Positions 213 through 24,373 of a DNA stretch of 24,747 bases are shown one piece after another. Origin of the DNA: a virus; IMG/VR virus record IMGVR_UViG_3300025769_000798, positions 1-24,747 of that record; one strand, 5' to 3'. The stretch's first letter is position 1, and each line of letters opens with the position of its first letter. Under the pieces are notes generated by a model. The model did not search any database. It was given only the letters and a program-made list of their open reading frames with translations, and had not been told where the DNA came from. A program made the position numbers and the translations under genes.

Positions 213-1045
213 ATCATATCCTCCAATAATCCAGACTTGACAATCTGCTGTCCTACCCATTCCGAGCATTGAGGAACGATTGCATTCCCTAACGCTCTAA
301 GTCTGTCCAGCCGATCGGGAATCCCATCATCCACTCTACAAAGAGGGGAGACAGGACTTGTCTTTCCCCAGTATTGGGTTTTTTGAAGTGCGTTATTAAC
401 TTTGGAGTTTTTCTTGTATATTCTGCCGGATAGCCTCCCTCTTTCGCAAGATGCGCTGTCGGAGTCGGCAGATTTCTGTGATCTCCTGCGCTGTATCTGA
501 CTCCTTTCTCCACGAGTCGAATCAAGCTCCCGGTGCCGTGTTTGTCTGGATCGGACGCTGTCGGGGTAGGCAACTGCAAACCATCTTCGTCGGAGATGCG
601 GAGCTCCAAAGTCTCGAGCGGATATAACTGTCCATTCTGTGCAATACCCGATTTCGGCAAGCGATCCAACGACTTGGCATCCTCCGCGAATAAGCACAGC
701 TGCGACATTCTCCATGACGACGATTCTCGGTCGTAACTCGCTAATGATTCGTAACATTTCCCACCAAAGACCCGATTTTTTTCCATGTAGTCCCATTCCT
801 TTTCCTGCTAATGATATGTCTTGACAAGGGAATCCACCGCATAAAATGTCGATCGGCTCTACATTGTCTCTTGTTATGTTCCTTACGTCGTTATATATTT
901 TTGCATCTGGCCAGTGCTTGGCAAGCACCTTCTGACAGAAGGCATTCTGCTCGACTTGCCAGATTGTTTCTGCTCCCGGGATTGCTCTCTCTAGTCCGAG
1001 CTCAAAGCCTCCAATCCCTGCAAAGAGGCTACCGATCTTTATCAT
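209..1045 (-). CDS. dcm: DNA (cytosine-5)-methyltransferase, phage Dcm type
   Basis: The product (278 aa) transfers a methyl group from S-adenosylmethionine to C5 of cytosine in DNA, and in phages usually guards against host restriction. Conserved blocks are in the normal order: motif I SLFAGIGGFELG (residues 6-17), motif IV GGFPCQDIS with the catalytic Cys74, motif VI MENV (111-114), motif VIII RRRW (152-155) and motif X ALGNAIVP (251-258). The ATG at 1045 is preferred over an in-frame ATG at 1057. It has GGAG six bases upstream, overlaps the upstream stop as ATGA, and gives the usual MIKIGSLFAGIGG start. Residues about 163-232, where the target-recognition region should lie, are short, polar and rich in Arg, Ser, Lys and Gln. 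That stretch is also read in another frame by the nested gene at 289-786. The target sequence cannot be predicted. Confidence 0.93.
   Translation of the reverse strand: MIKIGSLFAGIGGFELGLERAIPGAETIWQVEQNAFCQKVLAKHWPDAKIYNDVRNITRDNVEPIDILCGGFPCQDISLAGKGMGLHGKKSGLWWEMLRIISELRPRIVVMENVAAVLIRGGCQVVGSLAEIGYCTEWTVISARDFGAPHLRRRWFAVAYPDSVRSRQTRHRELDSTRGERSQIQRRRSQKSADSDSASCERGRLSGRIYKKNSKVNNALQKTQYWGKTSPVSPLCRVDDGIPDRLDRLRALGNAIVPQCSEWVGQQIVKSGLLEDMI
289..786 (-). CDS. Nested out-of-frame gene inside dcm, LPTPTASD/FVEWMMGFP family
   Basis: This 165-codon frame lies wholly inside the methyltransferase gene, on the same strand but in a different frame. It does not look like a chance shadow. It has SSSWRMSQLCLF (residues 22-33), RLPKSG (42-47), LPTPTASD (72-79), a second LPTPT (106-110) and a C-terminus LSPLFVEWMMGFPIGWTDLE (145-164). 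From memory, this set of motifs recurs in phage and metagenomic proteins annotated as methyltransferase-associated or hypothetical. An AGGA lies about ten bases before the ATG. In the same frame a TAG closes the ORF ten codons upstream of the ATG, so a longer start is excluded. The function is unknown. A role with the methyltransferase (partner, target-recognition subunit, or frameshift product) is inference from location only. Confidence 0.65.
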   Translation of the reverse strand: MEKNRVFGGKCYESLASYDRESSSWRMSQLCLFAEDAKSLDRLPKSGIAQNGQLYPLETLELRISDEDGLQLPTPTASDPDKHGTGSLIRLVEKGVRYSAGDHRNLPTPTAHLAKEGGYPAEYTRKTPKLITHFKKPNTGERQVLSPLFVEWMMGFPIGWTDLER

Positions 1046-1383
1046 TGATCGCTCCATGCTTTGACGCGTGCTTCTTCGACTTGTCTGCGCAGCTCGGGAA
1101 GACGGATGCCGACAAGAGGAGCAAAATAACGAGCAATGCTCTCTCCTGAGAGTGCTCCGTATGGTCTGCCATAGAACCAGAGCTTGATGCTTCCCTTCTT
1201 GACTGAGCAGGCCTGCGCGAAGTCGTGATCAGAGTATCGATCTCCAGCTGCTTTCTTGAGTCCAAGAAGAAACTTTTGAAGATCGGAGCATCTGCGGTTA
1301 TTCGGTGTGCGCTTCGGGAGCTTCGTATATTTCGGAGGAGCCTTTGTCGGGAGTATGCTCTGCTTAAATTGTCTGCGGCTCAT
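1042..1383 (-). CDS. Small HTH (XRE-like) protein
   Basis: The product (113 aa) has a basic N-terminal tail (MSRRQFKQ, KAPPKYTKLPKRTPNNRR) followed by a region like the helix-turn-helix of XRE regulators: DHDFAQACSVKKGSIKLWFYGR then LSGESIARYFAPLVGI. The pattern of an A-x-x-C/A turn, a polar recognition helix (KGSIKLW) and a G-R after it matches the protein encoded just upstream, so the two may be diverged paralogues. The start at 1383 is chosen over the in-frame ATG at 1395 because GGAG lies six bases upstream and the ATGA overlaps the upstream stop. It ends inside the start region of dcm (4-nt overlap). A role in controlling this operon is inferred, and the DNA-binding assignment is moderate. 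Confidence 0.65.
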   Translation of the reverse strand: MSRRQFKQSILPTKAPPKYTKLPKRTPNNRRCSDLQKFLLGLKKAAGDRYSDHDFAQACSVKKGSIKLWFYGRPYGALSGESIARYFAPLVGIRLPELRRQVEEARVKAWSDQ

Positions 1384-1652
1384 TCTGCTCTCCATTCGCT
1401 GACGTGCACTCTCCAGAGGATCTCTCGTATCATCGGGTTAAATGAGTCGATGCCGAGACTTGATAGATGCTGTGCGAGCTTGACGCGAAGAGCACAGCTC
1501 GGCAATCTCTTCCCGGATAGCCAAAGAGAGATCGTGCTGCGGTTGACTTCGATTGCTCTTGAGAGCTGCGATGCGTTCAAGTTGTTATTTGTCATAGTCT
1601 GCGAGAGCCAATCTGCAAAACTGAGCTCTTCTGTGTTTACATAGTCAATCAT
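1380..1652 (-). CDS. XRE-family HTH transcriptional regulator
   Basis: The product (90 aa) starts MIDYVNTEELSFADWLSQ and contains a clear XRE-type helix-turn-helix: NLNASQLSRAIEVNRSTISL followed by WLSGKRLPS, with the S-T-I-S-x-W-x-x-G signature of the recognition helix and turn. XRE regulators bind operator DNA as dimers and often control phage decision or early genes. The start at 1652 follows AGGAGACAAAGAACA, the same extended ribosome binding site used by other genes here. A longer in-frame ORF reaching 1832 overlaps the neighbouring gene and lacks such a site, so it was not chosen. The gene overlaps the next HTH gene by 4 nt. No classical operator palindrome was identified. Confidence 0.82.
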   Translation of the reverse strand: MIDYVNTEELSFADWLSQTMTNNNLNASQLSRAIEVNRSTISLWLSGKRLPSCALRVKLAQHLSSLGIDSFNPMIREILWRVHVSEWRAE

Positions 1653-16674: not shown

Positions 16675-18405
16675 CTAGTGATAATACCAGATGATGAGTC
16701 CGTCACCATTTGACAATGCAGCGCCGAAAGTCAAACGAGCAACGCCACCAGAGCCACCGTTCGCAGATACAGAGAATTCATCTTCGTCTGCTGCGGTATC
16801 ACCGAGAGCTGTCATGTTGCGAAGAGACAGACCATTCTTGAACACGAGAACAGAGTTCAATGCACCAGATGGCAGAGTCTGAGCGAGATCGATTGTAGTA
16901 GTAGAACCGCCGGAGATCTGCGCTCCTTCTTGTTTGAAGGTGATACCGAGCTTTGCAGCAGTCACAGAAGAGTCTGCGAGCTTGGCACTGGTCACACCAG
17001 AGTCAGCAAGAGCAGTCGTTCCAACAGCACCGGACGCGATCTTTGCAGATGTCACAGCAGCAGCTGCAATCTTAGCGGAGGATACAGAAGAGTCTGCGAG
17101 CTTGGCAGATGATACTGCTCCGTCTACGATCTCAGCAGTGTCGACTGCGTTGTCAGCCATCTTTGCATTTGTCACAGCGTCATCAGCGAGCTTCCCTGTG
17201 TCGATTGCAGTTGACGCGATCTTCGCTGTGGTCACAGCTCCGTCAGCAATCTTTGCAGTCGCTACAGCATTGTCAGCGAGCTTTGCTTCGAGTACAGAAG
17301 AAGAAGCAAGAGCAGCAGATCCTACAGATCCGTCGATGAGCTCATTTGCTCCTACAGAGTCGTCAGCCATCTTTGCATTTGAGATTGCATTGTCTGCGAT
17401 CTTTGCGCTTGTTACGTTTGCGTCGACAATCTTTGCAGAAGTAACAGCTCCGTCAGCAAGTTTTGCAGTCGATACTCCTCCGTCTGAGATGGATATGTCG
17501 TCGCCCTGCTTCTCCAAACCGCCTGATACGGTTACGGAGCCTAATCCGGTGAATCTTTGGAACTGGATTGCAGTTGTGCCGAGATTCGGTGCTGAATCAT
17601 TGATACAAACAAAACCCTGATTATCATAGGTATTACCTTCGAGAGCGAACAGGAACGCGCCCGGGAAATCATCCCCCTCGTCCATATCTGTAGAACGAGA
17701 CATAGCATTCCCAGAGCCTGCATAGACATAAACTCCGTTGTCCTCTTCGTCGTCCTGATCGATACAGAGGATTCTGTCCGAATTAGAAAGATTCACTCCG
17801 TCGATGCTTGCAGGAGCTTGTGAAAGATCAATGTTTGATCCAGCTACAACGCGAACGTTTTCCTTTACAGACAATCCAGCAGCAACAGAGTCGACATAGC
17901 TCTTATTGGCTGCGTCGTTTGAGTTGCTTGGCGTGCCAACTTGAAGAGTCCCGCTTGTATAATCATATGTGTCGGTCAAGTCGATCTTGCTTGCGTCTAC
18001 AGCATCGGCAGCGATCTTCGCAGATGTTACTGCGGAGTCGTTGATCTTTGCGGTTTCTACAGCAGAGCTTGCGAGCTTGGCAGCAGATACAGCAGAGTCT
18101 GCGAGCTTGGCAGTCTGTACAGATGCTGCTCCGAGTTTTGCAGCTTCGACTGCTCCGTCTGCGAGTTTTGCAGTCAATACTGCGCCGTCTGCGAGCTTGG
18201 CAGATTCTACAGATGCTGATCCGAGCTTGGCAGCTGTGACTGCTCCGTCATTGAGTGCAGCTGTCAAGACTGCGGAAGAACCGAGCTTTCCTGATGTGAT
18301 TGCTCCGTCTGAGATTTTTGCTGATGTGACAGCATTGCTTGCGAGTTTGGCGGCAATAATAGCCGAGTCGACTATCTGACCGCCTTTAATTTGAACTGAT
18401 CCCAT
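16675..18405 (-). CDS. Decapeptide-repeat fibre protein, probable head fibre
   Basis: The product (576 aa) has a symmetric plan. About 12 ten-residue repeats of the type AKLADGAVTS occupy residues 19-138. A central domain spans 139-313 (SYVDSVAAGLSVKENVRVVA; SDRILCIDQDDEEDNGVYVY; LGTTAIQFQRF), of a kind common in phage tail fibres. About 17 more repeats follow (314-490), then a C-terminal domain ending SNGDGLIIWYYH. Ten-residue A-K-[IL]-x-[DS]-x-A-V repeats are known from phage fibres, where trimers wind into rod-like helices. The position in the head module (between portal/scaffold and capsid, not in the tail-tip region) favours a head fibre; this is inference. TAGGAGTATCTCAC precedes the ATG, and a strong terminator follows the gene. 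Confidence 0.8.
   Translation of the reverse strand: MGSVQIKGGQIVDSAIIAAKLASNAVTSAKISDGAITSGKLGSSAVLTAALNDGAVTAAKLGSASVESAKLADGAVLTAKLADGAVEAAKLGAASVQTAKLADSAVSAAKLASSAVETAKINDSAVTSAKIAADAVDASKIDLTDTYDYTSGTLQVGTPSNSNDAANKSYVDSVAAGLSVKENVRVVAGSNIDLSQAPASIDGVNLSNSDRILCIDQDDEEDNGVYVYAGSGNAMSRSTDMDEGDDFPGAFLFALEGNTYDNQGFVCINDSAPNLGTTAIQFQRFTGLGSVTVSGGLEKQGDDISISDGGVSTAKLADGAVTSAKIVDANVTSAKIADNAISNAKMADDSVGANELIDGSVGSAALASSSVLEAKLADNAVATAKIADGAVTTAKIASTAIDTGKLADDAVTNAKMADNAVDTAEIVDGAVSSAKLADSSVSSAKIAAAAVTSAKIASGAVGTTALADSGVTSAKLADSSVTAAKLGITFKQEGAQISGGSTTTIDLAQTLPSGALNSVLVFKNGLSLRNMTALGDTAADEDEFSVSANGGSGGVARLTFGAALSNGDGLIIWYYH
16935..17466 (-). repeat. Second block of 30-bp coding repeats in the fibre gene
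   Basis: About 17 degenerate 30-bp units encode the AKLADGAVTS-type decapeptide. Units vary in synonymous and some coding positions, so the protein pattern is better kept than the DNA. Confidence 0.85.
17991..18351 (-). repeat. First block of 30-bp coding repeats in the fibre gene
   Basis: About 12 degenerate 30-bp units encode the same decapeptide type as the later block. Together the two blocks flank a unique central domain, and similarity between them could allow recombination that changes fibre length. Confidence 0.85.
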
Positions 18406-23293: not shown

Positions 23294-24373
23294 TCATGCT
23301 CCAAAAAGAGAGAGTTGTCGATCATTGTGATCATTGAAGTATATATTCTCTCTGTGTTTGTGTATTCTGACTTTTGAATGCTCAAAATAGTCTGTATTCT
23401 TCTCTATGCCTATGAAATTACGTTTTAGATTTTTGCACGCTATCCCGGTAGAGCCCGAACCCATAAAAATATCAAGAACAGTATCATTTTCTTTCGATGA
23501 ATGAAGAAGTATATTTTCTAATAAAGGGATAGGCTTCGGAGTTAAATGTTTTTCTTTTGGTGCAAAGTCATAGCACCAGACGTTATTATTCCATTTCTGA
23601 TCATGAAAGTTTTTCGTGTCTACTAATTGAGGCTCAAAAGTATATCTCTGAGCTTCGTATTCTTTCCGAAGAGCTTCGTATTCTTTCCGAAGAGCTTCGT
23701 ATTCTTTCCGGAGATCTTCGTATTCTTTCCGAATAAATTCGCTTTTCAAAGGTATTGTATCGAGTTCTTTGTATGTTTCTTTTGTGGGTAGTTCCCACTG
23801 TGATGAATTCCATCTAAAACAGTGATCGGCTCTCTGATGTCCTAATGTTTCATGTATTTGTTTTTTGTTCAATCCGAGAGCTGTTTGATACTCTTTGAAG
23901 TAAGTTCTCAAAGATTGAAAATTCGTTATATCATGCTTGACTTTCTTAAGGCCTGATTCATCTTGAAATGTATAAAACAGTATATATTCAGTGAAACCAT
24001 TATAGTAATTTCTTGACTGTGAGGTGCTAAGCCTCCTCTTTGCGAATCCTAAACTTTTCATATTTTCAAAATACTTATTCCATGTAATGAATTGCTTAAA
24101 TACAAATTTTGTATTCTTTTCTATCCAATCCATTATTTTGATAATTTGCATCATATCATTATGGAACCAATAAAAAGAGCCATTATCTTTTAGCACTCTT
24201 TCGACTTGCTTAATCCATTGACCGCACCAAGAAACATATTCTTCTTGAGTGCTCCATTTATCCCAAGTATCCTTTTTTATATTATATGGAGGATCTGTCA
24301 GAACTAGATCAATACTGTTTGATTCGATCTCTCGCATAGCCTCAAGACAGTCTTGATTATAGAGTTGTATCAT
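23294..24373 (-). CDS. DNA amino-methyltransferase (N6-adenine or N4-cytosine), beta class
   Basis: The product (359 aa) transfers methyl groups from S-adenosylmethionine to an exocyclic amino group in DNA. The catalytic motif IV DPPY (27-30) comes before the cofactor motif FMGSGSTG (303-310), the beta-class order. Between them lies a target-recognition region with a four-fold seven-residue repeat RKEYEAL (about 214-241) that likely forms a helical coiled coil. The gene looks clearly more AT-rich than its neighbours, a sign of separate acquisition. ATG at 24373 follows AAGG, two bases after the previous stop. With the cytosine methyltransferase it gives the phage two modification activities. 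DPPY does not by itself separate N6-adenine from N4-cytosine. Confidence 0.92.
   Translation of the reverse strand: MIQLYNQDCLEAMREIESNSIDLVLTDPPYNIKKDTWDKWSTQEEYVSWCGQWIKQVERVLKDNGSFYWFHNDMMQIIKIMDWIEKNTKFVFKQFITWNKYFENMKSLGFAKRRLSTSQSRNYYNGFTEYILFYTFQDESGLKKVKHDITNFQSLRTYFKEYQTALGLNKKQIHETLGHQRADHCFRWNSSQWELPTKETYKELDTIPLKSEFIRKEYEDLRKEYEALRKEYEALRKEYEAQRYTFEPQLVDTKNFHDQKWNNNVWCYDFAPKEKHLTPKPIPLLENILLHSSKENDTVLDIFMGSGSTGIACKNLKRNFIGIEKNTDYFEHSKVRIHKHRENIYFNDHNDRQLSLFGA
23651..23734 (-). repeat. Four 21-bp tandem repeats in the amino-methyltransferase gene
   Basis: Four consecutive 21-bp units on the plus strand begin AGCTTCGTATTCTTTCCG (23651, 23672, 23693 and, with one change, 23714). The first two are identical over 21 bp. 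Read on the minus strand they encode the heptad RKEYEAL or RKEYEDL. Copy-number change would keep the reading frame. Confidence 0.93.

Follow-up and report, generated by a model that had tools for sequence, protein, structure and literature searches.

Two overlapping reading frames of a viral DNA stretch probably encode one two-subunit DNA (cytosine-5) methyltransferase

The DNA stretch analysed, called the window in the following, is a 24.7 kb IMG/VR virus record. Two overlapping open reading frames, alpha and beta, are both located on its minus strand (Table 1). We consider it very probable that both subunits of a DNA (cytosine-5) methyltransferase of the M.EcoHK31I kind are encoded by this single piece of DNA. 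Alpha would be translated from position 1057 and provide the catalytic domain with motifs I-VIII as well as motif X. Beta would be started at an internal ATG (786) in the +1 frame, with its own ribosome-binding site, and would supply motif IX, two 'LPTP' cassettes that can be exchanged and would recognise the target, and a conserved piece at the N-terminus. Alpha would cross the beta region out of frame as a disordered linker and so reach motif X. Both chains, we infer, assemble to the active enzyme.

Table 1 Features of the alpha and beta reading frames in the window
Feature	Position	Strand	Remarks
Alpha subunit, C5-cytosine methyltransferase catalytic chain, 282 aa	209..1057	-	motifs I-VIII and X
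Alpha motif IV (GFPCQ, catalytic Cys)	821..835	-	invariant in 59 aligned alphas
Alpha motif VIII (HLRRRWF)	578..598	-	H154, R156 and R158 invariant (59 aligned alphas)
Alpha read-through linker, residues 194-255, out-of-frame reading of the beta region	293..478	-	pLDDT < 50; position-specific rates: beta frame selected here
Alpha motif X (GNAIVPQ), begins at the beta stop codon	269..289	-	pLDDT about 95; G257 and N258 invariant
AAGGA, likely ribosome-binding site of beta	797..801	-	from sequence; 10 nt before the beta ATG
Beta subunit, nested ORF, 165 aa, +1 frame of alpha	289..786	-	phrog_1008, E 1.9e-23; open and selected in nearly all relatives
Beta conserved N-terminal part, overlaps alpha's later motifs up to VIII	577..750	-	beats all alpha-synonymous shuffles in 138/154 held-out loci
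Beta cassette 1 (LPTPTASDPDKHGTG...), putative target-recognition module	472..573	-	cassette family in 13 loci
Beta cassette 2 (LPTPTAHLAKEGGYPAEYTRKTP...), putative target-recognition module	355..471	-	cassette family in 49 loci, positions 1 to 4
Beta motif IX (LSPLFVEWMMGFPIGWTDL)	298..354	-	profile on canonical motif IX, E 6e-4, prob 29%

The locus and its two chains

A preliminary description of this DNA had pointed out a nested frame of 165 codons inside the methyltransferase gene, and this frame was found as given. Beta comprises 165 aa counted from the ATG and 172 codons from stop to stop. Translation of both frames gave the two readings of one DNA described before, SPLCRVDDGIPDRLDRLRAL and LSPLFVEWMMGFPIGWTDLE. 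The repeated LPTPT of the nested frame occurs in two copies, at beta residues 72 and 106, which are the starts of the beta cassettes. Alpha motif X begins with a codon that overlaps the beta stop codon (289-291). The order in the DNA, motifs I-VIII, target recognition, IX and X, is that of ordinary single-chain enzymes, and only in the middle does the reading frame differ. Upstream, a 117-aa ORF without family match (1042-1395, minus strand) overlaps the alpha start by 16 nt, suggesting a translational coupling of alpha to this ORF.

Alpha contains the C5-cytosine methyltransferase motifs I, IV (PCQ), VI (ENV), VIII and X. It matched PF00145 with E 1.3e-45, covering only profile positions 2-216 of 324. 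Likeness to M.HhaI (sequence E 6e-23) extended up to motif VIII, with a fold match of E 5e-17, and the model fold also matched M.HaeIII. In the AlphaFold2 model the catalytic domain (about residues 1-180) and the C-terminus with motif X (257-282) were confident. Most of residues 194-255 was unstructured; these residues correspond to the stretch where alpha crosses beta out of frame. Here alpha is rich in Arg, Ser and Lys, as had been noticed before for the region where the nested frame is patterned, and it is predicted to be disordered (pLDDT < 50). The target-recognition region and motif IX are absent from the alpha chain, as judged by the end of the PF00145 match at 216 of 324 and the disordered middle. 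Therefore, alpha alone is an incomplete single-chain member of PF00145.

Beta had no match in the Pfam, NCBIfam and PADLOC families. Its main match in PHROGs was phrog_1008, named 'DNA methyltransferase'.

Selection on the nested frame

For 168 loci the alpha protein was kept and its codons were redrawn by alpha's own codon usage. By this recoding 706 stops were expected in the beta frame; none was observed, and the interruption of most nested frames by stop codons, considered in the preliminary description, did not occur. In the window the +1 frame stayed open in 0.1% of 2000 trials with the alpha protein kept (6.6 stops expected), and the alpha frame in 0 of 2000 trials when only the beta protein was kept. 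As the 168 loci had been gathered as unbroken ORFs, a sample of 80 viral loci drawn with alpha alone gives the cleaner figure. It was collected in this way because the other samples had been found with beta; the beta-found and alpha-found viral samples share some contigs. In 77 of these 80 loci the +1 frame was stop-free and matched the beta profile, while the +2 frame held 1-27 stops. Methyltransferases of the same genomes without beta match showed 4-42 stops in the +1 frame. The three exceptions were L245 with ordinary single-chain motifs, L255 as a close truncated relative, and L251, which is described below.

Furthermore, the differences per alpha codon position were determined for 96 disjoint pairs of loci. 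For positions 1/2/3 they amounted to.139/.072/.402 upstream of the overlap,.208/.107/.293 where the beta N-terminus lies over alpha's later motifs up to VIII,.324/.144/.129 in the beta cassettes and motif IX, and.128/.070/.379 beyond the end of beta. In the cassette part position 1, the wobble position of beta, exceeded position 3, the wobble position of alpha, in 79 pairs, with the reverse in 4; before this part the relation was 1 pair to 59 and after it 2 to 81. The fastest codon position changes from alpha wobble to beta wobble exactly across the target-recognition and motif IX part, and then changes back. Over the cassettes the alpha reading is carried along, in essence, as a passenger.

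The likeness to the beta profile was compared with that of shuffled sequences coding for the same alpha protein. Such shuffles alone scored about 40 bits on the beta N-terminal profile, thus a part of beta's N-terminal likeness is a shadow of alpha. All 100 shuffles were exceeded by the N-terminal part in 138 of 154 held-out loci and by the C-terminal part in 153 of 154, compared with 9 of 155 for a control region before the overlap. The median excess was 39.4 bits in the overlap and 4.7 bits in the control. For the window, the beta N-terminal part scored 90 bits and the best shuffle 67. From the held-out scores and the control region it follows that beta is a real, selected protein in both its N- and C-terminal parts. 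Measuring the constraint in each frame had been proposed in the preliminary description, with a nested frame free of synonymous constraint as one outcome; instead, strong constraint was found, and both the wobble switch and the held-out scores show selection on the beta frame. Both frames are under selection and the architecture is conserved. The idea of a remnant is unsupported.

These results bear on the explanation that beta is not made, and that its open frame and its likeness are by-products of a conserved methyltransferase read one base off. The 40 bits reached by the shuffles and the lack of a Pfam or NCBIfam family for beta fit such a shadow ORF, but the missing stops, the shift of substitutions to the beta wobble position and the shuffles beaten in the held-out loci do not, nor does the absence of target recognition and motif IX from alpha. 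We regard its probability as practically negligible. The shadow-ORF reading was rejected by the stop count, the codon-position switch and the held-out scores with their control.

Cassettes, motif IX and translation of beta

Between the N-terminus and motif IX, betas contain 1-5 cassettes per locus of about 39 residues, each opening with an [LW]PTP-like motif. Two cassettes are present in the window, three in the close relative L018 and four in L053. Cassettes with 60-92% identity were shared across alphas with less than 50% identity in 68 pairs of loci, and of the 95 pairs whose alphas reached 85% identity or more, 38 carried differing cassettes. This modular exchange of cassettes in beta was directly observed. 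In this the cassettes behave like the target-recognition domains of multispecific phage enzymes, and the comparison suggests that they recognise the DNA target. The published TL consensus of target-recognition domains was strictly present in 2 of 209 betas and mostly missing. With moderate confidence we lean towards the view that the hidden nested subunit holds the site selection. Each of the 1-5 exchangeable cassettes of ~39 residues would set one target sequence, and phages would retarget by cassette swap; both frames would stay open while the out-of-frame linker of alpha absorbs the changes, in a large family of cytosine methyltransferases from phages and prokaryotes. With exchangeable cassettes, a code of target recognition can be put directly to the test.

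The C-terminal end of beta reads LNPxFVEWMMGFPxGWTDL. Its profile aligned column for column with canonical motif IX, and the same comparison with alpha motif X appended in DNA order raised the probability from 29% to 90%; the comparison set consisted of canonical C-termini read by hand. A motif IX carried by beta is moderately supported by this alignment. No match was obtained when the beta profile was compared with PDB sequences, with Pfam and with single-chain enzymes, where the motif IX piece alone aligns, and betas containing motif X had no match in Pfam. Modelled alone, beta gave a poor structure (pTM 0.34) without significant fold match.

Some loci deviate in the distribution of the motifs. 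In L251 the motif WVEWLMGYP is found in the alpha frame with motif X directly after it. For this locus (L251:2001-3053) motif IX (LNPDWVEWLMGYP) is read in the alpha frame before motif X, and the LPTP cassettes stay in the +1 frame. This arrangement is either an in-frame join of IX and X or an indel in the contig. In the actinobacteriophage loci L006, L011, L012 and L017 alpha terminates behind motif VIII, and motif X is supplied by the overlapping beta gene; the annotation names both genes DNA methylase. Likewise, alpha ends after motif VIII in L111 and L147, with motif X in the beta frame. These variants with X in beta may be intermediates between the single chain and the full nested form. 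A stop in beta was found in L030, and a frame change in alpha in L070 and L136.

It is highly improbable that beta is an unrelated second protein, e.g. a regulator or an anti-restriction factor, overprinted on a self-sufficient methyltransferase. The lack of a Pfam or NCBIfam family and of a significant fold match would agree with this. However, beta supplies exactly what alpha is missing, its C-terminal motif aligns on motif IX, which is in frame with X in L251, and it runs on into motif X in the six loci where alpha ends after VIII. M.EcoHK31I, moreover, is a biochemical precedent for a second subunit (PMC3404938). The preliminary description does not mention this precedent. The earlier suggestion of a second protein or a frame-shifted target-recognition domain was essentially right, and beta is best read as the subunit for target recognition and motif IX.

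With regard to translation, a start codon (ATG or other) 17-18 codons before a YDxxSxSW motif was the best candidate in 44 loci, several of them with an SD-like sequence at this start. Internal initiation of beta is likely, since the ATG (786) is preceded by AAGGA and the start candidate lies at the same place in the 44 loci. In a branch with loci of Salmonella, Acinetobacter and Microcystis phages (L007:1691-2446, L002 and L016) no stop interrupts the beta frame over the entire length of the alpha gene. There, an ATG located 4 nt behind the alpha start (MSWLFSQAL...) is a candidate beta start, with an alternative further in.

Programmed frameshifting, by which ribosomes would leave the alpha frame behind motif VIII and continue in the beta frame, was considered as well. 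One chain would then comprise I-VIII, target recognition and IX, with or without a separate beta. The beta frame does continue this canonical order, and in some clades (L002, L007, L016) it is open from the alpha start with no obvious beta start. Nevertheless, frameshifting is very unlikely: the fused chain would lack motif X, which almost all loci read in the alpha frame, and the 70 N-terminal residues of beta, skipped by a shift after VIII, show selection that exceeds the alpha shadow. In the clade of the window, an ATG with an SD-like sequence holds a constant position, and M.EcoHK31I consists of two separate polypeptides (PMC3404938).

Distribution, role and comparison with known systems

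By tblastn with beta, 89 phage records were matched. Among 16 of these records and 80 IMG/VR loci, all except two had the beta-like frame at +1 to alpha, and in almost every case beta and alpha overlapped over hundreds of bases. Prokaryote genomes scanned with the beta alignment yielded 80 loci, 76 of them with alpha motifs I-VIII and X in one ORF and beta nested at +1. They derive from Pseudomonadota, Actinomycetota, Bacillota, Bacteroidota, Synergistota, Spirochaetota, Patescibacteria, archaea and others. When 200 genomes were drawn evenly from one phylum, a beta match was present in 14 (7%), a count that contains the starting genome and a broken copy; all eight loci read from this draw carried beta at +1. 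The viral and prokaryote loci bear out the assumption of a dual-coding region that is widespread and ancient. As proposed, homologues of both frames were collected, and the pairs come from one overlapping locus with beta at +1. Homologues of the nested frame were found only inside methyltransferase loci, as expected for a nested subunit. The preliminary description held that both motifs recur in separate phage proteins. The recurrence was confirmed, but these proteins are two readings of one kind of locus in which either frame is annotated.

For 12 fully nested annotated phage loci, nine list only alpha, three only beta and none both. Current annotation is blind to half of the enzyme, and cloning or prediction of alpha alone would give an incomplete enzyme. 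The long same-strand gene overlap is well supported, and its many diverged copies make selection on two frames measurable.

No restriction endonuclease adjoining the locus was detected among the neighbours tested. The window also contains phage structural and packaging genes and a second DNA methyltransferase of the N6/N4 type (23294-24373, minus strand; PF01555, E 2e-47). For these reasons an orphan modification enzyme protecting the phage DNA from host restriction is the likeliest role. The PF01555 methyltransferase has an insert of near-identical EYE(D/A)LRKEYEALRKEYEA repeats, which is probably a coiled coil. A tail-fibre-like protein (16675-18405, minus strand) with PHROG tail fiber matches consists mostly of ADGAVT(T/S)AKI-type repeats, and the strand opposite its gene is open for 228 codons (16934-17620, plus strand).

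A family-wide description of the nested subunit was not found in the literature searched, with most subscription papers and REBASE outside its reach, and the accessible part of the GeneTack frame-transition survey does not mention it. What is new, as far as can be told, is how widespread the arrangement is, the quantitative support for dual coding, that the variable cassettes lie in beta and are exchanged, and that beta is absent from Pfam and NCBIfam. The arrangement of two halves in two frames is rare and known from one bacterial enzyme; here it is ancient, widespread and mostly missed by annotation.

This kind of enzyme has reportedly been known since 1995, when Lee, Kam and Shaw are said to have described M.EcoHK31I (YGGCCR) as a two-subunit enzyme. 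Its small subunit is reportedly encoded in another frame inside the gene of the large subunit, with both needed for activity. M.EaeI is a further enzyme of this kind. The larger polypeptide of M.EcoHK31I contains motifs I-VIII and X and the smaller one motif IX; its predicted target-recognition domain was placed in the large subunit (PMC3404938). The large chain of the window corresponds to this division, with I-VIII and X and without IX. The small chain likewise carries motif IX, with moderate strength (probability 29% alone, 90% with X), and it is nested in another frame, as in the reported gene layout, and selected as a protein. In contrast to M.EcoHK31I, the locus of the window is phage-borne and widespread, with variable cassettes in beta instead of the large subunit. 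Because of the tested features in common, it is a member of the M.EcoHK31I kind.

In M.AquI (CYCGRG), a C5 methyltransferase that is split by nature, the larger chain bears motifs I-VIII (PMC3404938). This enzyme is resembled by the actinobacteriophage loci and by L111 and L147 with motif X in the beta frame, here with overlapping genes. The window and most relatives differ from it by motif X on the large chain and by nested genes. M.HhaI and M.HaeIII (PF00145) are like alpha in the catalytic domain, but their single chain also includes target recognition and motif IX, all in one frame. The C5 methyltransferases of the Bacillus phages SPR, SPbeta, phi3T and H2 possess tandem target-recognition modules (PMC8936443), exchangeable in domain swaps (PMC2413257). 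The tandem, exchangeable cassettes of beta may correspond to such modules; unlike the modules of the Bacillus phage enzymes, which are single chains in one frame, the cassettes of the window are located in a nested second subunit.
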